Below, piece by piece: positions 35,697 to 45,216 of a stretch of 64,000 nt of DNA (position 1 is its first letter; every line of letters begins with the position of its first letter). This stretch comes from Synechococcales cyanobacterium C42_A2020_086 (GTDB taxonomy: Bacteria; Cyanobacteriota; Cyanobacteriia; Elainellales; Elainellaceae), in contig JACYLU010000015.1 in NCBI GenBank assembly GCA_015272325.1, positions 1 through 64,000 on the forward strand, in the 5' to 3' direction. The notes below the pieces were generated by a model, which was not told the origin of the DNA, did no database searches, and saw only the letters and a program-made list of their open reading frames with translations. The translations under genes were made by a program, and so were the position numbers.

Positions 35697-36080
35697 TCAT
35701 TGCAGCGTCCACCCAAGCAACTGCGCCACCTGATTGGCCAGCTCTAGCGGCTCGAAGGGTTTGGCAATGGTACCGGTAATACCTATCTCGCTGTAGCGGC
35801 GGTAGTCGCTGGCTTGCACCTTGGCGGTTAGGAGAATGACCGGGATGTGGCGAGTTTGAGGGTTAGCCTGCAGCGCTTGAAAGGTTGTCAACCCGTCCAT
35901 ATCGGGCATCATGACATCGAGCAAAATCGCGTCGGGCTGCTCACTTTCTGCTTTGTCAATTGCCTCTTGCCCAGAGCTAGCAGTTGTAATATGCCAATGG
36001 GTAACTGCTTCCAAGCAAATCTGTGTGACTTCCTGAATGTAGGGTTCGTTGTCTACAACAAGAATAGATTTAACAGCCAT
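35697..36080 (-). CDS. CheY-like response regulator
   Basis: A 127-residue stand-alone receiver. Phospho-acceptor Asp55 is in AILLDVMMPDMDG, with Thr/Ser switch in VILLTAK and the conserved Lys107 in IAKPFEPLE. The acidic pocket reads VVDNEP, so one of the usual two Asp residues is Asn, which could lower Mg2+ affinity; this variant is common in cyanobacterial PatA/CheY-like proteins. It is 240 bases downstream of the large hybrid regulator on the same strand and may receive phosphate from its Hpt domain; that is inference. Confidence 0.88.
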   Translation of the reverse strand: MAVKSILVVDNEPYIQEVTQICLEAVTHWHITTASSGQEAIDKAESEQPDAILLDVMMPDMDGLTTFQALQANPQTRHIPVILLTAKVQASDYRRYSEIGITGTIAKPFEPLELANQVAQLLGWTLQ

Positions 36081-36320: not shown

Positions 36321-38750
36321 TTAAATAGCAGACGTAGACTTGCAAAAATCAGATTTATTGGCACAAGAATGATAGGCTGAATGCTGATCACGCGGTTGCT
36401 CTGCCAAATTATCTGCCAAACTATCTGCTAAAACAATAGACTGCTGGAGTGCACTCTGGTACAGTGCCGGTAGATTTTCGCCATCATCTGGATAGTGAGC
36501 CACGCCCATGCGAAAGGTGACTGGCTCAAAACCAGCGGCAATGAGGTCCTGCTGAAGCACTGACAGGAGTGCTTGCAGGCGGTTCTGCCCGTCTTTCGGC
36601 ATACCATACAGCCCCAGCACAAACTCGGTTTCACTCCAGCGAGCCACCACATCTTCTTCCCGCACCCCATGACGCAGCCCGCATCCTACCTGTCGCAAAA
36701 CAGCCGACCCTGGAGAGTGTAGGGCAGGCATGGGTTCTACTTGAATCAGCATCAGGCTGAGGCCTTGCCCCTGCCGTTGGGCCAAGCGCAGCAGCTTATA
36801 CAGGTCTAGAGTGGCTTTGGGGCGGGTAGACACTTGCGTCAGCCGGTCGATCTCCGATAAGTTGCTGAGGAGGCGCACCCGTTCTAGGCGATGCATAATT
36901 CGAGTCACAAATTCAGGACCCACAATCGGCTTACTCACAAAGTCATCGGCTCCGGCTGCAAACACCTGGCTAATTGTGCGGGCATCGCGGCAGGAGGTCA
37001 AAATTAAAATCGGGAGACTGCTCCAGTCAGGATTCTGACGGACCTGCCGACACAGGTCAATCCCGTTGATGGGCGTCATTTTCAGATCGAGCACCAGCAA
37101 ATCTGGGGCCGCCGCCTCCAAGGTTTGCCAGAAGCGAGTTGGGTCGTCTAGGGTGACGGCATGCAGCCCCCAAGGTTGCAGCAAGACCCGCACCACCGCC
37201 AAGAGATGGGGGTCATCATCGACCACCATGATGGTGGCATCCGTCTTAGCCGCAATCGAGTTTGCTTGATGCAGCTGCTGCATTACGTCCTTTAAGACCT
37301 GGGCTGGGGTGCTAAGGGGCGGCAGGCACACGCAGGGAGCCAGATCTTGGCAATCCAGCGGAACGGCAGGTTCGAGAAGCCGCACCAACAAAGGTACGGT
37401 GGGCAACTGCCGCCGTAGGTCAGACAGACCAGATTGATCAACCGAGCAGGCATTGAGCAGCACAACCTGCGGACAGAGCTGGGAAAGCCGGGCTTGAGCC
37501 ATTGCCAGATGGGTCGCTAGTTCCGTCCGCAAACCCCAGTGGGTGGCTTCGGCAATCAACGCTGCTGCGGTGCTGGGATTGCTGTCGATCAGCAAAAGCA
37601 GGGGTGGTTCATCGGCTGGGTCCCCCGCCGGTGCCGTTGCTGTAGACAGAACCGAGGGTGACTTCTTCAAGGCAGCCGGTGCTTGACTAATGGTTTGCCG
37701 CAGCACCGCTACCAATTGCCGCAGCCGTTGGCCCTCCGCCGCACTCCATCCAGAACAATGCAGCAGCTGATTGATCGAGCGAGCCATCTGGGAGCCGGTC
37801 TCTAAGCCGAAGGTGCCCAAGGAGCCAGCCAAACTGTGGGACTGCTGCTGTGCTTGCTGCTGTAGATCCTCAGTCAACGTCTGGCTAGAAATGGCTGTGG
37901 CAGCCTGCTCGAGTACTGCAACCTGCTCTAGGATTCGAGGCTTGAAGCGATCCCACACATCGGCGATGGCTGCCAATGTCTGCTCAGCCGAAGACGAGGC
38001 AGGTGCTTCAGCTCCTGGATGAGCACATTTCGACCCGGCATCTCTGGCTTGACCCGAGTGACGCTGCGGCGGTGAACTAGCAGGCTTTAAGCGATAGCCA
38101 ATGCCATACACTGTTTCAATACAGTCGGTGGGAGCACCAGCCGCCTTGAGCTTTTGGCGCAGCCCTTTGATGTGAGTGCGAACCGCTTCCTCTCCAGGAA
38201 TATCCTCAAAGGACCAGAGATTCTCTAAGATAGCGCTGCAGCTAAAAACCCGGCGCGGATTGCGCAAAAATAGCTCCAGCAGTGCGTATTCTTTGGGCGT
38301 CAGCGCTAGGATCTGCCCCCGGTAGCTCACTTCGCAACTATGCGGATCTAGCTGCAGCTGCTCCCAGGTTAATACTGCCTGCGCAGTCGCTTGCCCCCGA
38401 CGCAACAGTGCCCGAATCCGAGCCACTAACTCTTCGGGGTCAAAGGGTTTTACCACATAGTCATCGGCTCCCGCATCTAACCCCACCGCCTTGTCGTGGC
38501 TGCTGTCGTGAGCGGTGAGCAGCAAGATGGGCATCTGGTAATGGTGAGAGCGAATTTGCCGACAGAGGCTGATGCCATCGAGTTTGGGCAGCGCGATATC
38601 GAGCAGCACCAAATCGTAGGGAAAGGTTTCAATCAACTCCCAGGCAGAGGCACCATCAGTTGCGATTTCCACAGTGTAGGTTTGGTTGCCTAGCACAGTG
38701 GCTAGAGCACTGGCGGTCAGGTTATCGTCTTCCACCACTAAAATTTTCAT
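36321..38750 (-). CDS. Multi-domain response regulator REC-wHTH-Hpt-pseudoREC-REC-degenerate GGDEF
   Basis: An 809-residue fusion. Order: OmpR-type receiver 1-120 with Asp51 (LLDIALPKLDG) and Lys101; winged-helix DNA-binding domain about 125-222 (LTPKEYALLELFLRNP, RTHIKGLRQKL, GIGYRL); Hpt about 255-360 with His305 in QSHSLAGSLGTFG; a pseudo-receiver about 383-495 with Asn433 at the phospho site (VVLLNACS); a true receiver 505-625 with Asp555 (LLVLDLKMTP) and SKP Lys; and a GGDEF-like domain 630-775 in which the motif is RWSETEF (704-710), so no diguanylate cyclase activity is expected. It should act in transcription through a phosphorelay. Divergent from the zinc-ribbon gene. Confidence 0.88.
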   Translation of the reverse strand: MKILVVEDDNLTASALATVLGNQTYTVEIATDGASAWELIETFPYDLVLLDIALPKLDGISLCRQIRSHHYQMPILLLTAHDSSHDKAVGLDAGADDYVVKPFDPEELVARIRALLRRGQATAQAVLTWEQLQLDPHSCEVSYRGQILALTPKEYALLELFLRNPRRVFSCSAILENLWSFEDIPGEEAVRTHIKGLRQKLKAAGAPTDCIETVYGIGYRLKPASSPPQRHSGQARDAGSKCAHPGAEAPASSSAEQTLAAIADVWDRFKPRILEQVAVLEQAATAISSQTLTEDLQQQAQQQSHSLAGSLGTFGLETGSQMARSINQLLHCSGWSAAEGQRLRQLVAVLRQTISQAPAALKKSPSVLSTATAPAGDPADEPPLLLLIDSNPSTAAALIAEATHWGLRTELATHLAMAQARLSQLCPQVVLLNACSVDQSGLSDLRRQLPTVPLLVRLLEPAVPLDCQDLAPCVCLPPLSTPAQVLKDVMQQLHQANSIAAKTDATIMVVDDDPHLLAVVRVLLQPWGLHAVTLDDPTRFWQTLEAAAPDLLVLDLKMTPINGIDLCRQVRQNPDWSSLPILILTSCRDARTISQVFAAGADDFVSKPIVGPEFVTRIMHRLERVRLLSNLSEIDRLTQVSTRPKATLDLYKLLRLAQRQGQGLSLMLIQVEPMPALHSPGSAVLRQVGCGLRHGVREEDVVARWSETEFVLGLYGMPKDGQNRLQALLSVLQQDLIAAGFEPVTFRMGVAHYPDDGENLPALYQSALQQSIVLADSLADNLAEQPRDQHSAYHSCANKSDFCKSTSAI

Positions 38751-39793: not shown

Positions 39794-41101
39794 ATGCCCG
39801 GTACTGGCCTGGATGCAATGTCATCCTTTCCGTATTTCTCTGCACATTCCTTGCAGATTGCCTGTCCTCCTCTGCCGCAATGCCGAGTCTGCGTTATTGT
39901 TCCGGTTCGCAACGAAGCCGAAATTTTAGAAGCGAGTCTCGCTGCCCTTGCTCATCAACTGGATCTTGACGGGCACCCCCTTGACCCAACCCAGTATGAA
40001 ATCATTCTGTTCGCCAACAACTGCACTGATGACTCTGCTGCCATTGCCCGTCGCTTTGCCCAGCGTCACCCAGCGATAGTCCTGCATGTGGTCGAGCAAA
40101 CTCTGCCCACAGCAGAAGCCTACATTGGGCGAGTACGGCAACTCTTAATGGATGCTGCTTACACGCGGCTAATGGCAGTAGGGCACCCTCGCGGCGTGAT
40201 TGCCTCGACCGATGCTGATACCCGAGTTGCATCCACCTGGATTGCAGCAACTCTGCAAGAAATTGCCCAGGGGGCTGATGCGGTGGGCGGACGGATTATG
40301 ACCGATGGGCCCGGACGCGCCGCCCTAGACACCCATGCCCGAGCTTACTTTCTGCGGTGCGTCGGCTATCACTTTTTGTTAGCAGAGCTGGAAGCTTATT
40401 TAGACCCTGATCCGTTCGATCGCCATCCCCGCCACCACCAGCATTTTGGTGCCAGCCTAGCGGTGACCGCAGAGATGTATGCCCGTGCAGGGCGGATGCC
40501 TGCCGTACGCACTCCCGAAGATGTTGCATTTTACCAAGCGCTGCTGCGAACCGGAGCGCGTTTTCGCCATAGTCCTCTGGTTCGGGTCACGACCTCAGCT
40601 CGTTCGGTGGGGCGGACTGACATGGGCTTAGCCAATCAGCTCAATCAGTGGGCTGTCATGGGGCAGCAACAGCAACCGTTTCTTGTGGAACCAGTTGCCG
40701 CCGTTGAGACCCGACTCCATGCCCGGCGACAGCTCCGGAATCTCTGGCGGCGTAGGCTAGAAGGCTATGGAATTGGCGAAACTATTGTACCGCTGGCGCA
40801 GCAGCTGCAAATTTCACCCGACTGGCTCTGGACTGAACTCGCCCAAGCTGCCACCGTTGGGGCCCTGTGGGAACAGATCGAGCAGCGGCAGCACCAGGAA
40901 GGACTGTGGCAACAGCACTGGGGGCTAGAGCGAATCGAGCAAGCCATTGCCGATCTGCGGCTGCGGCTCTATAAACTCCGGCACAGTGCTGTCGTGTACG
41001 CTGCACCCGAACGCTTTTGTTCGCCCGTGGCGTCTAAACCCGCTCGAACACATCGAGGCGATACGTTGCTTCCCGCTGACTGTTCAGATGTCGCAGGGTA
41101 G
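39794..41101 (+). CDS. Family 2 glycosyltransferase
   Basis: A 435-residue cytoplasmic GT2. It has CVIVPVRNEAEILEASLAAL (33-52), FANNCTDDSA and the metal/donor-binding DADTRV (Asp140, Asp142), then a long segment with HARAYFLRCVGYHFLLAELE. There are no strong membrane helices, so it is not a NodC-like polymerase. Start ATG at 39794 with AAGGAG about 12 bases upstream. Its last 22 codons (41034-41101) lie on the complement of the methyltransferase gene and the encoded tail does not look conserved. It faces the methyltransferase, PIG-L and acyl-CoA dehydrogenase genes; this set recurs in other bacteria as I recall, so it probably transfers a sugar in the same unknown pathway. Confidence 0.82.
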   Translation: MPGTGLDAMSSFPYFSAHSLQIACPPLPQCRVCVIVPVRNEAEILEASLAALAHQLDLDGHPLDPTQYEIILFANNCTDDSAAIARRFAQRHPAIVLHVVEQTLPTAEAYIGRVRQLLMDAAYTRLMAVGHPRGVIASTDADTRVASTWIAATLQEIAQGADAVGGRIMTDGPGRAALDTHARAYFLRCVGYHFLLAELEAYLDPDPFDRHPRHHQHFGASLAVTAEMYARAGRMPAVRTPEDVAFYQALLRTGARFRHSPLVRVTTSARSVGRTDMGLANQLNQWAVMGQQQQPFLVEPVAAVETRLHARRQLRNLWRRRLEGYGIGETIVPLAQQLQISPDWLWTELAQAATVGALWEQIEQRQHQEGLWQQHWGLERIEQAIADLRLRLYKLRHSAVVYAAPERFCSPVASKPARTHRGDTLLPADCSDVAG

Positions 41102-41606
41102 GTATCTGCAAAAACGACTCATGCACTGCGTCCCCAGTTAGCGGATAATCGGGGGCGGGCTGGGTCCAGTGCACCAGCAGCAGATGCCCCCCTGGCTGCA
41201 AAGAGGTAACGATCTGCTGCTGCGCCAACGCTAAATCCTCCCAGCACCAGTAGTAACCTACTTCCGATAGCACCACCAGATCAAACATTTGGTTCGGATA
41301 CTGCTGCGGCACGCGCATTAATTCAAACTGCACATGGGGCAAATCCCGACACCGTTCGATTGCCCGTCGCTGAGCGATTTCAGACACATCGATCGACAGT
41401 AGCGCCTCGCAATGTTGAGCTAGCAGTGCGGTCAGCACACCGATTGAGCCGCCAATTTCGAACGCGGAACGATAAGGCGGGCGGGGTAAAGCAGCAATCG
41501 TGGCTTGATATTTGTTGGCTTCGTAATCGCTGGTTTCAAATTTCCAAGGATCGGGATCGGCGCTGTAGAGAGCGTCAAAGTAGCTAGGCGGCAGAGATTG
41601 TTGCAT
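41034..41606 (-). CDS. NodS-like SAM-dependent methyltransferase
   Basis: A 190-residue class I methyltransferase. It starts SYFDALYSADPDPWKFETSD, followed by YEANKYQATIAALP, the signature of the NodS family. The SAM-binding motif I is FEIGGSIGVLTALLA (49-63), post-I is SIDVSE, and the motif II region is DLVVLSEVGYYW. NodS in rhizobia N-methylates the deacetylated glucosamine of Nod factors; the homologues in non-rhizobial clusters are not characterised, so N-methylation of an amino sugar is an inference. It is the last gene of the minus-strand set after the dehydrogenase and deacetylase and overlaps the convergent glycosyltransferase gene by 68 bases. Confidence 0.85.
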   Translation of the reverse strand: MQQSLPPSYFDALYSADPDPWKFETSDYEANKYQATIAALPRPPYRSAFEIGGSIGVLTALLAQHCEALLSIDVSEIAQRRAIERCRDLPHVQFELMRVPQQYPNQMFDLVVLSEVGYYWCWEDLALAQQQIVTSLQPGGHLLLVHWTQPAPDYPLTGDAVHESFLQIPTLRHLNSQREATYRLDVFERV

Positions 41607-41632
41607 GATTCAAAAAATAGATTCAAAAAATA
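41607..41632. repeat. 13-bp tandem duplication GATTCAAAAAATA
   Basis: Two perfect adjacent copies, 41607-41619 and 41620-41632, immediately upstream of the methyltransferase start codon (41606), so they form the mRNA leader of that gene. No Shine-Dalgarno sequence is apparent there. Confidence 0.95.
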
Positions 41633-41694
41633 ATGATGAATTGATCATGAAATGAAAGTAACCATCAACGGTAGAGAGCTAGCGAGAGGCCACA

Positions 41695-41744
41695 ATGATG
41701 TTGGTCTAAGGTCGATCTAATGATGTTGGTCTAAGGTCGATCTA
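41695..41744. repeat. 25-bp perfect tandem duplication
   Basis: The 25-mer starting ATGATGTTGGTCTAAGG and ending GTCGATCTA is present at 41695-41719 and again at 41720-41744, followed by a partial AGGTCTA. It lies between the deacetylase stop and the methyltransferase start. Confidence 0.97.
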
Positions 41745-41748
41745 AGGT

Positions 41749-42642
41749 CTAAAACGCGAGATGATAATCGAGCGAGAGCCAGGAACGGTCTCTAGATTTA
41801 CTGTCTAGATTGACTAAGCCAGAATCTGACACGGGCGCAGGATCCACTGCCAACGCTGCTTTGGATGCCTCTAAATACATCTCCCAGGGCTGCTGAAAGG
41901 GAGCGAGCATGTCTGGCGTTAAGCGAAAGCCACTGGGGTCATCGTCGATGAGATCGGTGATCTGCGAACGATAGGCGGTCATTGCCTGAACTTTGCGAGC
42001 CAATACCGAGGAAATATCCAGCCGCCAGACCTGAATCCCCCGCGGCAGGGGTTGGCGCTGAGCGGGGTCCCAGTCCCAAATCGGATATTCCAGCAGGCGG
42101 GGTGAATAGTCGAGTTCAGCCATTGCTCCTTGCAACAGCCACCAACTCGCCCGGTGATCGGGATGGGGGTCATAACGCCACGGCAGCAGAATCAGTGAGG
42201 GTGCCAGATCAATGAGCTGAGCTTGGCAGCGCTCCACAGCTAGGGCGAATTCAGGTTGCTCGGGTAAAGGAACCGCCCCATCCGGCAGATCCCAGAAAGT
42301 AATGGCGGTGTCTGCAACGCCCAAATGGGTCAAGGCAGTTCGAGTTTCGTTGGCTCGCAATGCTCGCAGTGCTGCCGCCGGATAGCGCCGCGAGTTGGGA
42401 TGAGATTTTGTGCCGTCGCTAATCACCCAAACATGCACGGGGTAACTCCGTTCACGCAGCAGGGCAATGGCTCCACCGCAGCCCAGGGTTTCATCGTCGG
42501 GATGGGGAGCAACGATCAGCACGGGCGGCATTGCACCAGCCTGCTCCGCAAAAAGAGCGGATAACACCCTATCAATAGAAAACAGTGGTAACTGAACAGG
42601 AGACGAAAATGGAAATGTATCAGTAGACATATCAGCAGACAT
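41749..42642 (-). CDS. PIG-L family deacetylase
   Basis: A 297-residue protein from the ATG at 42642 (ATG 42630 is an alternative). The open frame extends to 42804 but that part overlaps the dehydrogenase gene and is not protein-like. The zinc-binding motif is VAPHPDDETLGCGGA (His47, Asp49, Asp50), with the third ligand in DPHPDHRASWW. PIG-L enzymes remove N-acetyl groups from GlcNAc-containing lipids or sugars (GlcNAc-PI, MshB, BshB). There is no signal peptide, so the substrate should be cytoplasmic. It lies 73 bases after the dehydrogenase gene and 142 bases before the methyltransferase, in one direction; deacetylation would expose an amine for the methyltransferase. Confidence 0.87.
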   Translation of the reverse strand: MSADMSTDTFPFSSPVQLPLFSIDRVLSALFAEQAGAMPPVLIVAPHPDDETLGCGGAIALLRERSYPVHVWVISDGTKSHPNSRRYPAAALRALRANETRTALTHLGVADTAITFWDLPDGAVPLPEQPEFALAVERCQAQLIDLAPSLILLPWRYDPHPDHRASWWLLQGAMAELDYSPRLLEYPIWDWDPAQRQPLPRGIQVWRLDISSVLARKVQAMTAYRSQITDLIDDDPSGFRLTPDMLAPFQQPWEMYLEASKAALAVDPAPVSDSGLVNLDSKSRDRSWLSLDYHLAF

Positions 42643-42671
42643 AGCTTCAGCGGCTACCCATTTGGCAGCAT

Positions 42672-42699
42672 GGCAAATATGGGCAAATATGGCAAATAT
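42672..42699. repeat. GGCAAATAT x3
   Basis: Copies at 42672-42680, 42682-42690 and 42691-42699 in the short gap between the dehydrogenase stop and the deacetylase start. Confidence 0.9.
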
Positions 42700-42715
42700 T
42701 ACAGTGAGGCAGCTT

Positions 42716-43996
42716 CTAACCGCCTTTAAATCCCTGCCACAGATGACGGGCTGCCGCTGACTGAGCGAGAACATAGTGCCCCACATTGGCAATTGCTGCA
42801 TCATAGGCGGGTTGCCGCAGGTATAGCGTTAGATCTCGCAGGATGCGTTCCATCGGGTTGGGTGGCAGTAGACCGCGAGTGCCCACCGAGCGCTCACACC
42901 ATTGCATCATGTCCATACAGATCTGCTCAATTGCTGTGCGCACCATATTGACATAGGCGACCAGCGAGTCGGCAGCGGAATGGGCAGCAGTAGGCTCTCC
43001 GCCAAATCGAGGAGCATAGGCAGCAACTTGATCGGCTGCTGCCCGTAGCCATAGTTGTCCGCTTTCCAGAGCAATAGCCATTTGGCCGAGTCGCTCTTCC
43101 TGGTAGGGGTAATCGGTGCGACCCTGAGACTGCAAAAACTGCCGCGTTAGGTCGAATAGGGCTTCTGCCGCTCCTAGCTGCACTGCCGCAAAGCGAATAA
43201 CGCCCCCCGTCAGCCAGGGTTGGCGGTTGTAGTCGCCGGGATTGCCAATCAGATCTTTGGCGTCCAGTTCCACCCCTGTAAAGTCAATTTTGTAGCTGGC
43301 AGTGGCTCGCATTCCTGCAGGCTGCCACCAATCGGGGTCGCTGATGGTGGTTACTTCATCCATGGGAACAATTGTCATCTGCCAGCGACCGTCGGGCAGC
43401 ATTCCGTTCACAAAAGGGCGATCGACATAGCCAGCCCCCGAGCAGAAAGTTTTACAGCCTTCGAGTCGGTAGCGACCGTTAGCGAGGGGGATAATCTTAA
43501 CGCCATCTGCAGCTTCGGCATTCCAAACTCCAAACAGCTTGGAGCGATCGCGAGCATCGCTGGCATAGCGGGTGATCTGCTCTGGAGTACCAAAAGTCTG
43601 GATCAGTTGCAGCGCGTTCACATGCCCTTCATAGATTCGCCCCACGGCCAAGTTGCCGTAACCAATCCGTTGCAGCAGCAGCAGCAGCTCGTGAGTCAGG
43701 TGAGCGTCAATCCCCAGTCCCAACCCACCCAGGTCAGGATGCAGGGGGGCAGACAGAAGCCCGGCGGCGGTCATCTGCTGAAATTCCTGGACCGGGAATG
43801 CTCCTAGCCGATCGATGGCGGCGGCATTGGCAGCGCAGGCTTCAGCAATGGTGGCAGCGCGAGCGAGCAGCTCTGCTACGGCAGCAGCCAACTGGGGTTG
43901 GGTTGGCAACACCACTGGAGGTGTGTGCGAAGTGAGTTGTGCAGTAATAGAAGCCTCCTTTGCAGTCTGGCAGTGGCAGCGGTGGCGAAATCCCAC
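42716..43996 (-). CDS. Acyl-CoA dehydrogenase-like flavoprotein
   Basis: Up to 426 residues of the acyl-CoA dehydrogenase superfamily: N-terminal helical domain (FQQMTAAGLLSAPLHPDLGG), middle beta-domain (TFCSGAGYVDRPFVNGM, WQPAGMRATASYKIDFTGVE) and C-terminal helical domain (VRFAAVQLGAAEALFDL-type region, RSVGTRGLLPPNPMERILRDL). The usual catalytic-Glu motif YEG is not evident, so the reaction may differ. Start is uncertain: GTG at 43996 has no ribosome-binding site, while AAGGAGG (43960-43954) stands 5 bases before an in-frame ATT at 43948. It opens the minus-strand set leading to the deacetylase and methyltransferase; its job there might be oxidation of an acyl or amine group, which is inference. 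Confidence 0.82.
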   Translation of the reverse strand: MGFRHRCHCQTAKEASITAQLTSHTPPVVLPTQPQLAAAVAELLARAATIAEACAANAAAIDRLGAFPVQEFQQMTAAGLLSAPLHPDLGGLGLGIDAHLTHELLLLLQRIGYGNLAVGRIYEGHVNALQLIQTFGTPEQITRYASDARDRSKLFGVWNAEAADGVKIIPLANGRYRLEGCKTFCSGAGYVDRPFVNGMLPDGRWQMTIVPMDEVTTISDPDWWQPAGMRATASYKIDFTGVELDAKDLIGNPGDYNRQPWLTGGVIRFAAVQLGAAEALFDLTRQFLQSQGRTDYPYQEERLGQMAIALESGQLWLRAAADQVAAYAPRFGGEPTAAHSAADSLVAYVNMVRTAIEQICMDMMQWCERSVGTRGLLPPNPMERILRDLTLYLRQPAYDAAIANVGHYVLAQSAAARHLWQGFKGG

Positions 43997-44097: not shown

Positions 44098-45216
44098 CTA
44101 TGCCAGGAATGCCACGAGCTGCTCTAGCTTTTGCCAAGCTGCCCCGCTGCGAATAATCTCTTGTGCCATTTCTACCCCACGGCGATAGACCGCATCGTCT
44201 GTCTTGTCATCGTCCAGTACACCGCCGACCTTCAGAGCCAGAGCCGCATTGAGAGCCACGACATCCTGCTGAGCCGGCGTCGCTTTGCCTTGCAGCACAG
44301 CCTTCAGGATCTCAACGTTTTGATTCACCTCGCCCCCTCTGAGAGCACTGAGCGGTGCCGGAGACAATCCCACTGCTTCCGGCCGCAGCACATAGGACTG
44401 TACTTGCCCACTAGAGAGCACCGCCAGATCAGTAGCATCGCCCAGTCCTGCCTCATCTAGGCGCTCGCGACCGTGCAGCACAATGGCTTCTGATCTTCCC
44501 AAAAGTTGCAGCGCCTGCGCCACCGTTGCCACAACCTCCGGATTAAAAACTCCCATCACCTGCCCGGTAATCGGCAGCGGATTCACCAGTGGACCGAGCA
44601 AATTAAACACCGTGCGTACCTTCAAGGTTTTGCGCAGCGGAGCTACTGCCTTCATCGCCGGGTGCCAACCGGGAGCAAACAAAAAGGTAATTCCCACTTC
44701 GGAGACCGCAGCCTGAATTCGCTCTGGTTCTGCTGCAAGATTGACCCCCAACGCTTCCAAGACATCCGCTGATCCGACTTTGCTGGAGGCAGCCCGGTTG
44801 CCGTGTTTAGCTACTGCTACCCCTGCAGCGGCGGTTACAAAGGCCGTTGCGGTTGAGATGTTAAAAGTCGAAGCGCGATCGCCTCCCGTGCCACAGGTAT
44901 CGATCAAGGGAACCGGCAGCAACCGCTCTGTAGCCAGCGACTGGCTCAAGGACTGAGATTGCAGCACCTCTGCCATGCCAGCCAGCTCTGGAGCCGAAAC
45001 CCCTTTCATCTGTAGCGCTGCCAGAATCGCCCCCGACAGCACCGGTGGAATCGCCTCACTCAACCAGCCTTGCATGAGTGCGGCAGCTTGCGGTCGCTCC
45101 AGCGATTGCCCATCAAGCAACTGCTGCAAAACAGCCGACCAATCCAGCTCGGTAGGGGCAGCCGCCAAAACAGACGTAGCAGACGTAGCAGAAGAAATAG
45201 AAGCAGAATCACTCAT
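44098..45216 (-). CDS. trpD: Anthranilate phosphoribosyltransferase
   Basis: A 372-residue TrpD. The PRPP-binding glycine loop is [14 protein letters not shown] (GTGGD at 109-113), with [21 protein letters not shown] (137-157) and the second metal/anthranilate region [12 protein letters not shown]. It joins anthranilate and PRPP in the tryptophan pathway. The N terminus has about 22 extra Ser/Ala residues before [14 protein letters not shown], so a later start is possible, but no internal Met is available there. No other trp gene is adjacent, as is usual in cyanobacteria where trp genes are dispersed. Confidence 0.95.

Follow-up and report, generated by a model that had tools for sequence, protein, structure and literature searches.

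In Nod factor tailoring, NodB de-N-acetylates an N-acetylglucosamine (GlcNAc) unit and NodS then methylates the amine that NodB has freed. Mycothiol and bacillithiol are small, stress-related glycosides, made by a glycosyltransferase (GT) of family GT4 and then a deacetylase, MshB or BshB. Amino sugars are also oxidised, as dTDP-sugars, by the nitrososynthases DnmZ, ORF36 and KijD3. Here we describe a set of four genes, about 4 kb in size, that resembles each of these systems in part. It lies in a stretch of 64,000 nucleotides of Synechococcales cyanobacterium C42_A2020_086 (contig JACYLU010000015.1, positions 1 to 64,000), referred to below as the window. That the four genes are functionally linked is close to certain. 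It is very probable that they cooperate in making a single small molecule, the likeliest candidate being an amino-sugar glycoside that has been deacetylated, methylated and oxidised. We propose, with a probability of roughly 0.57, that they are a co-inherited unit directing the synthesis of a small intracellular N-methyl-aminoglycoside, which would be of use where conditions are dry, light-exposed or oxidative.

A preliminary description of this DNA had placed a GT2 gene facing three minus-strand genes at 39794-43996. The open reading frame (ORF) listing of the window contains the four ORFs at these coordinates, and Pfam assigns GT2, NodS, PIG-L and acyl-CoA dehydrogenase (ACAD) domains to the four proteins, with three of the four ACAD domains above cut-off, so that the arrangement is confirmed. 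The genes are:

39794-41101, plus strand: GT2-family glycosyltransferase with a GT-A fold (435 aa; PF00535)
41034-41606, minus strand: NodS-like class I S-adenosylmethionine (SAM) methyltransferase (190 aa; PF05401)
41749-42642, minus strand: PIG-L (LmbE-like) zinc deacetylase, a proposed de-N-acetylase (PF02585; the listed ORF is 41749-42804, 351 aa)
42716-43996, minus strand: ACAD-fold flavoprotein of a DszC-like subfamily (426 aa; GTG start; EGH(V/L)NA and RDL..YLRQ motifs)

The GT and methyltransferase genes are convergent and overlap tail-to-tail by 68 bases, and the flavoprotein gene is located directly upstream of the PIG-L gene. Where the PIG-L gene begins is uncertain, because tblastn matches in most homologues begin between residues 52 and 95 of the ORF (exceptions are L011, from residue 32, and L027, from residue 1); the ATG at 42642 is likely to be the true start.

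The set would follow the same deacetylate-then-methylate logic as Nod factor tailoring and shares the NodS domain with it, and a Rubrobacter variant has a deacetylase of NodB's family. Unlike Nod factor tailoring, it contains a PIG-L enzyme in place of NodB (except in Rubrobacter), a GT2 enzyme without a membrane stretch in place of NodC, and an extra flavoprotein. Its methyltransferase scores 67.6 bits against the NCBIfam NodS equivalog NF041650, far under the cut-off of 300, and its hosts include cyanobacteria, Deinococcus and Hymenobacter. With the mycothiol and bacillithiol pathways it has in common a GT and a PIG-L-type deacetylase, the latter weakly matching the equivalog profiles of BshB1 (49.6 bits; cut-off 182.5), BshB2 (49.3; 195.25) and MshB (21.6; 224.35). 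These scores are far under the cut-offs, however, the GT belongs to family GT2 and not GT4, and a methyltransferase and a flavoprotein replace the cysteine ligase. The flavoprotein shares the ACAD fold with the nitrososynthases, and the module would offer the amino-sugar substrate that these enzymes use, but the sequence match to DnmZ (3.9e-13) is weaker than that to DszC. None of the four window proteins reaches an NCBIfam equivalog cut-off. Amino-sugar tailoring as such is known from Nod factors and mycothiol.

Homologues of the four proteins were searched for separately, one search per protein, in the window's own genome and 59 relatives. At the levels taken to define close homologues (at least 450 bits for the flavoprotein, 218 for the methyltransferase, 393 for the GT and 248 for PIG-L), the flavoprotein is present in 15 of the 60 genomes and each of the other three proteins in 14. 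The levels are set off by clear gaps in score, the next matches being at 78 bits for the flavoprotein, 108 for the methyltransferase and 115 for PIG-L, with none at E 1e-30 for the GT. The 14 genomes with all four close homologues are identical across the searches, an all-or-none pattern, although in two of them (G001 and G022) the GT is on a separate contig. In 45 genomes, a close homologue of none of the four was found, some of these genomes holding distant PIG-L, methyltransferase or flavoprotein relatives. The fifteenth flavoprotein genome, G024, is 85% complete; its flavoprotein match contains two stops and it has no close homologue of the other three. Around five weaker ACAD-like loci (L018-L022), the other three genes were not found in the flanks of about 1.5 kb examined on each side.

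In a pattern scan of one genome per species over 84,980 species, 510 loci were found to encode a flavoprotein relative. Only the 80 best were kept for analysis, and the sample is therefore biased towards the window's close relatives. Going by their titles, 60 of them come from cyanobacteria and 17 from Hymenobacter, with one each from Pyrinomonadaceae, Puniceicoccaceae and an entry titled Tatlockia (68% match). This sample and that of the 60 genomes are not independent: G061 (L036), G070 (L078) and G072 (L041) coincide in place and score with G001, G022 and G024. The core order flavoprotein, PIG-L, methyltransferase, contiguous on one strand, is kept in 77 of the 80 loci; in one of the exceptions (L064), 1.9 kb separates the PIG-L and methyltransferase genes, and the other two are considered below. 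The position of the GT varies more. It is inside the locus in 60 cases, convergent on the methyltransferase gene in 43 (27 with overlapping reading frames), directly upstream of the flavoprotein in five and otherwise placed in 12. In the remaining 20 loci the GT was not found, in agreement with tblastn, and several of these loci stop soon after the methyltransferase. When the genomes of 15 GT-less loci were searched, 12 contained a close GT elsewhere (E 1e-164 or better): four on the flavoprotein's contig (33 kb, 1.9, 2.5 and 3.9 Mb away) and eight on another contig, some of which could be neighbours of the flavoprotein across a contig break. Adjacency is thus unnecessary for co-retention, since the GT is kept elsewhere in 12 of 15 genomes.

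Clustering of the ORFs of at least 100 aa in 85 loci recovered the four module families in 84, 82, 79 and 63 loci. No fifth family was found to be widespread over the cyanobacterial loci, the next family occurring in 15 of the 85 in mixed positions and on mixed strands; the remaining clusters either reflect the chromosomal surroundings in Hymenobacter or are small, and the majority of clusters are unannotated. A fifth module gene was rejected on this basis.

Taken more broadly, the set is seen in cyanobacteria, Hymenobacter, Deinococcus, one verrucomicrobium and proteobacteria, with variants in an acidobacterium, where PIG-L is not in place, and in Rubrobacter, where the deacetylase is a different one. 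It is plasmid-borne in Deinococcus, Paracoccus, Komagataeibacter, Sulfitobacter, Acinetobacter, Cupriavidus, Bradyrhizobium, Sphingobium and Nostoc. On the Cupriavidus plasmid, PIG-L is about 3 kb off and on the opposite strand; in Nostoc UHCC 0926 all four genes are present.

Trees of the four proteins were built from 37 loci by a quick method, and their distance correlations, not their topologies, were compared. One row with a very long branch (L109) and two identical to others (L047 to L010, L087 to L014) were dropped, leaving 34. Over these, the tree distances correlate at 0.91-0.96, a value that none of 2000 permutations reached; over the 19 cyanobacterial rows, the correlation is 0.52-0.86 and at most four of 2000 permutations reached it. 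The four trees are not identical, and low-support branches vary. The preliminary description had named the four families as neighbours in unrelated bacteria, which is now borne out by the 14 of 60 genomes, the 77 contiguous cores and the genomes with a displaced GT; agreement of the protein trees, which it had put forward as a check, is obtained in the form of correlated distances for both the 34 and the 19 rows. Since the same 14 genomes hold all four genes, the core is intact in 77 of 80 loci and the trees are correlated, the genes are co-inherited and not brought together by chance.

The PIG-L protein matches PF02585 with 80.1 bits (cut-off 28.2). The seven residues of its metal site, HPDDE...HxDH (H, D, D, E, H, D and H), are kept in all 18 aligned sequences (17 distinct); four further loci of the alignment set gave no PIG-L match. 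Its profile (A3) matches structures of diacetylchitobiose deacetylase, BshB and MshB. On a plasmid of Rubrobacter indicoceani (L111 4951-9602), a Polysacc_deac_1 gene, of the family that includes NodB, occupies the place of PIG-L beside the flavoprotein, methyltransferase and GT, and PIG-L was not found in the 14.5-kb window searched there. This is a single case, in which both the flavoprotein (162 bits) and the GT (175 bits) are divergent. Because an unrelated class of enzyme with the same known activity replaces PIG-L, the swap points to a sugar de-N-acetylation step, for which it is the best single argument. A Pyr_redox_2 gene is located between the Rubrobacter methyltransferase and GT genes and could encode a reductase partner. 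The window's genome has a second PIG-L gene on another contig (G000 contig C24 29384-29761; L001), 31% identical to that of the cluster.

The methyltransferase has a PF05401 NodS domain (53.8 bits; cut-off 24). Its profile (A2) has the NodS structure 3ofj as nearest named match (E 5e-26), an entry titled only "Methyltransferase" (4isc) being closer (E 6e-43). By analogy with NodS, it is proposed to N-methylate the freed amine. Among the methyltransferase ORFs of the 80 loci, 14 of 79 have a long N-terminal extension, with a DIDGTLT motif in all 13 printed; in one cyanobacterial lineage, Pfam analysis of three identifies this as a HAD-type hydrolase domain fused to the methyltransferase. Loci with the fusion include L032 (5253-6596), L058 (10872-12260), L064 (12054-13388) and ten more, and in them the GT is often not adjacent. 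A HAD hydrolase as a general member of the set, which would hint at a phosphorylated intermediate, was dropped, since only three of 18 genomes with non-fused clusters match the HAD part at E 1e-8; it is a lead for one lineage only. NodS-like domains (37-38% identity) are also found in open frames of 1173-1204 residues (G016:C73, G024:C184 and G050:C24), with an architecture unlike that of the module.

The GT matches PF00535 with 41.9 bits (cut-off 23.3), and T139, D140 and D142 of its DxD motif are invariant in 36 aligned sequences (A6). The AlphaFold2 model (pLDDT 87.3) gives structure matches to the generic GT-A fold, resembling polysaccharide and teichoic-acid GTs, and there are weak profile matches to HpnB and polyprenyl-phosphate transferases. 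Its highest 19-residue hydropathy is 1.31. In a simple hydropathy scan, a membrane-type stretch was not found in the window GT, methyltransferase or flavoprotein, and the hydropathy peak of the window PIG-L precedes its likely start.

For the flavoprotein, "acyl-CoA dehydrogenase-like", the term used in the preliminary description, turned out to be a poor one. Its best profile matches and top fold matches are DszC, TdsC, MsuC and SfnB. The profile matches DszC at 2e-29, TdsC at 8e-26 and MsuC at 2e-22, versus 1.6e-18 for 4u83, the best listed acyl-CoA dehydrogenase outside this group; 5z8t and 5gj7, named acyl-CoA dehydrogenase type 2, are intermediate at 3e-21, and 5z8t is also titled flavin-containing monooxygenase. 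Foldseek ranks DszC, TdsC and the related 5z8t and 5gj7 at positions 1-15 for the AlphaFold2 model (pLDDT 86.9). The best folds are DszC, TdsC and MsuC, with Z 38.8-39.2 (TdsC 5xdc: Z 39.2, root-mean-square deviation 2.4, 363 residues aligned), followed among the nitrososynthases by KijD3 (Z 36.9, 2.8, 365 aligned) and DnmZ (Z 36.5, 2.8, 361 aligned). Judged by its profile, the flavoprotein is nearest to the DszC/TdsC/MsuC-type flavin monooxygenases.

It differs from DszC in residues that are catalytic there. In the profile alignment, with hand-counted numbers, Arg, Gly and Val stand in the places of His92, Tyr96 and Asn129 of DszC, and Arg-Gln in that of the His391-Asp392 pair; Ser163 is retained. 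Both Arg residues are invariant in A1 (nine sequences) and A5 (20 sequences); in a wider set of 21 (20 distinct), 19 sequences have Arg and two have Lys at the first position. The YLRQ motif is present in 18 of 21 module flavoproteins (20 distinct), with ILLQ in Rubrobacter, FIRQ in Acinetobacter and FLRQ in Cupriavidus, and three cyanobacterial paralogues outside the module retain a DszC-like LHDP motif. The scores against the NCBIfam equivalogs are 80.5 for DszC (cut-off 850) and 79 for SfnB (cut-off 430.9). The flavoprotein therefore looks, from its sequence, like a subfamily of its own. In the one other ACAD that was aligned, from D. radiodurans, the YEGT motif, which would mark the position of the catalytic glutamate, was not seen. 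Long N-terminal extensions of the flavoprotein occur in Deinococcus (L023 5714-8077, L110 5696-8035 and L116 5702-8050) and Hymenobacter (L098 7165-10062). They have no Pfam match in L023, L098 and L110 and no NCBIfam match in L023 and L098, and that of L098 may be a mere open frame upstream. The L023 extension reads like a glycoside-hydrolase barrel, with a GH1 gene directly upstream.

The conserved linkage and co-occurrence of the genes, the correlation of the trees, the family assignments, the conserved metal site and the fold are observations. For the proposed pathway, the sugar donor and the acceptor, the sequence of the steps, the kind of oxidation, the solubility and the role in the cell are inferences. 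The soluble GT2 enzyme would transfer an N-acetylated amino sugar of the GlcNAc type to an acceptor, the PIG-L enzyme would strip the acetyl group from the transferred sugar, and the NodS-like enzyme would use SAM to methylate the amine so freed. Oxidation would be the task of the ACAD-fold flavoprotein, which would act as a dehydrogenase or as an oxygenase on N or C, but would not be a dehydrogenase of fatty acyl-CoA. The end product would be a small, intracellular, soluble and stress-related N-methyl-aminoglycoside. It is likely that an amino sugar is first de-N-acetylated and then N-methylated, and we put forward the flavin step, the product and the stress role as hypotheses. The preliminary description had suggested a deacetylated, N-methylated and further modified glycoside or glycolipid; its deacetylation and methylation are strengthened by the NodB-type deacetylase of Rubrobacter, while the type of product is as conjectural now as it was then.

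The stress role was considered from the surroundings of the module on plasmids. The list of stress genes comprised catalase, Dps, DUF892, PA2169-type, DUF4142 or general stress protein, trehalose synthesis, Ku/LigD, YetF/DUF421, DUF2171 and superoxide dismutase, and windows of the same size on the same plasmids, offset by 70 kb (40 kb in Acinetobacter), served as controls. Of the 13 annotated windows in which the module lies on these plasmids, seven contain a listed gene (Deinococcus AJ005, Komagataeibacter, Sulfitobacter, Acinetobacter, Cupriavidus, Bradyrhizobium and P. sediminicola), versus one (strict) or two (lenient) of 13 offset windows. The control genes are a superoxide dismutase in D. 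radiodurans and, on the lenient count only, a GlsB/YeaQ stress membrane protein in Bradyrhizobium. Left out of the comparison were Methylobacterium FF17 (flavoprotein alone, no listed stress gene), the unannotated Nostoc UHCC 0926 and Paraburkholderia D15 (no flavoprotein), in which a catalase family gene is present, so that its omission works against a stress role. To judge from their names alone, many of the cyanobacterial loci belong to genera of soil, rock or lichens.

Several observations count against the proposed intracellular aminoglycoside. Six of the 13 module windows are without a listed stress gene, and the list was compiled after those windows had been inspected. The one-sided sign test (0.035 at 7:1, or 0.0625 at 6:1) is thus post hoc, making the link to stress genes weak and suggestive only. 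Within the 80 loci, L041 has a broken flavoprotein only, its neighbours not being found, and in L093 PIG-L is not between the flavoprotein and methyltransferase, a weaker PIG-L being located past the GT. Three of the 15 genomes searched for a GT outside the locus yielded no close one. In D. radiodurans (L110 8752-11364), an opposite-strand helicase gene separates the PIG-L and methyltransferase genes and the GT was not found in the window; this locus is possibly a decaying cluster. The GT was likewise not found in the Roseomonas window, the flavoprotein is the sole member of the set in the window from a plasmid of Methylobacterium sp. FF17 (L024 6902-8068), where cyclic-di-GMP and PilZ genes are nearby, and Paraburkholderia D15 has only the methyltransferase and GT. 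A search of the window's own genome gave no match to the HAD domain that one cyanobacterial lineage has fused to its methyltransferase.

Further points of this kind concern the proteins themselves. Other ACAD-fold proteins reach Z 38.3 and below, tied with the 39.2 of the DszC-type enzymes, so that the fold does not separate these from true ACADs. The fold matches of the GT are too generic for its donor or acceptor to be named from them. A hydropathy of 1.6 is exceeded in 21 of 79 PIG-L relatives, four of 60 GTs, one of 80 flavoproteins and none of 79 methyltransferases, and solubility is therefore not uniform. Within the literature covered, no product, substrate or mutant of the module is known.

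The alternative that best withstands the evidence, if improbable, is a glycolipid, in which the GT would glycosylate a membrane lipid and de-N-acetylation, N-methylation and oxidation would follow, as for a simplified Nod factor or glycosylphosphatidylinositol precursor. The PIG-L, NodS and GT2 families do act in lipid-linked or lipochito-oligosaccharide pathways, and the weak GT matches to HpnB and polyprenyl-phosphate transferases and the hydrophobic PIG-L relatives fit such a product. The window GT, methyltransferase and flavoprotein have no clear membrane stretch, however, and the 85 loci share no fifth family widely. This last finding also bears on the decoration of an exopolysaccharide or cell-envelope glycan by the unit, which we consider quite unlikely. 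The resemblance of the GT fold to polysaccharide and teichoic-acid GTs suggests it, as do an extra GT and glf adjoining the unit in two Deinococcus loci and extra GTs in the Sphingobium and P. sediminicola loci, but these extra genes are lineage-specific.

We give marginally less credence still to the flavoprotein being a real acyl-CoA dehydrogenase that acts on a fatty-acyl chain, which would lead to an N-acyl or lipid-modified sugar. The fold tie and the Pfam ACAD domains are compatible with it. Against it are the preference of the profile for DszC (2e-29) over 4u83 (1.6e-18), the YLRQ motif in the catalytic region of 18 of 21 sequences, and the fact that the 85 loci do not widely share any further family, for instance a thioesterase or CoA ligase. 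A fatty-acid enzyme is accordingly not favoured. Chance proximity, plausible only in that each of the four families is large, is rejected with near certainty by the co-occurrence, the contiguous cores, the co-retention of genes when apart and the correlated trees.

If the proposed N-methyl-aminoglycoside is correct, NodB/NodS-type chemistry takes place outside symbiosis. The 510 flavoprotein loci among 84,980 species point to a common metabolite, which may have been overlooked, given that the set is widespread and the literature covered yielded no product. More tentatively, the product could be a widespread N-methylated, flavin-oxidised and perhaps N-oxygenated amino-sugar glycoside, protecting against drying, light or oxidation and encoded by a unit that has moved between phyla and plasmids; this broader reading is possible but doubtful.

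In the open-licence PubMed Central text that the searches returned, no product is described for the four-gene set, and the cluster appears only in gene-map legends. For the Acinetobacter BLUF photoreceptor gene blsA/anbluf65, such legends list DUF2171, acyl-CoA dehydrogenase, GlcNAc-PI de-N-acetylase, methyltransferase and glycosyltransferase genes nearby (PMC9020721, Fig 3 and S1 Fig); they form a gene map only, with no function or product proposed in the passages covered. The proteins that change in PMC10653896 include one with DUF2171 and members of the acyl-CoA dehydrogenase family, and acyl-CoA dehydrogenases decrease on drying in PMC13130816, with no tie to the cluster found in the matched passages of either. 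Term searches in PMC8092242, PMC6181384, PMC13232832, PMC9814549, PMC9657202 and PMC3758355 gave no passage showing the cluster.

Three neighbouring genes of the window are outside the four-gene module. The next gene upstream of the flavoprotein gene, as read from its translation, is:

44098-45216, minus strand: trpD

On the other side, an 809-aa protein encoded at 36321-38750 reads as a multi-domain response regulator, and a 127-aa response regulator is encoded near it, at 35697-36080.

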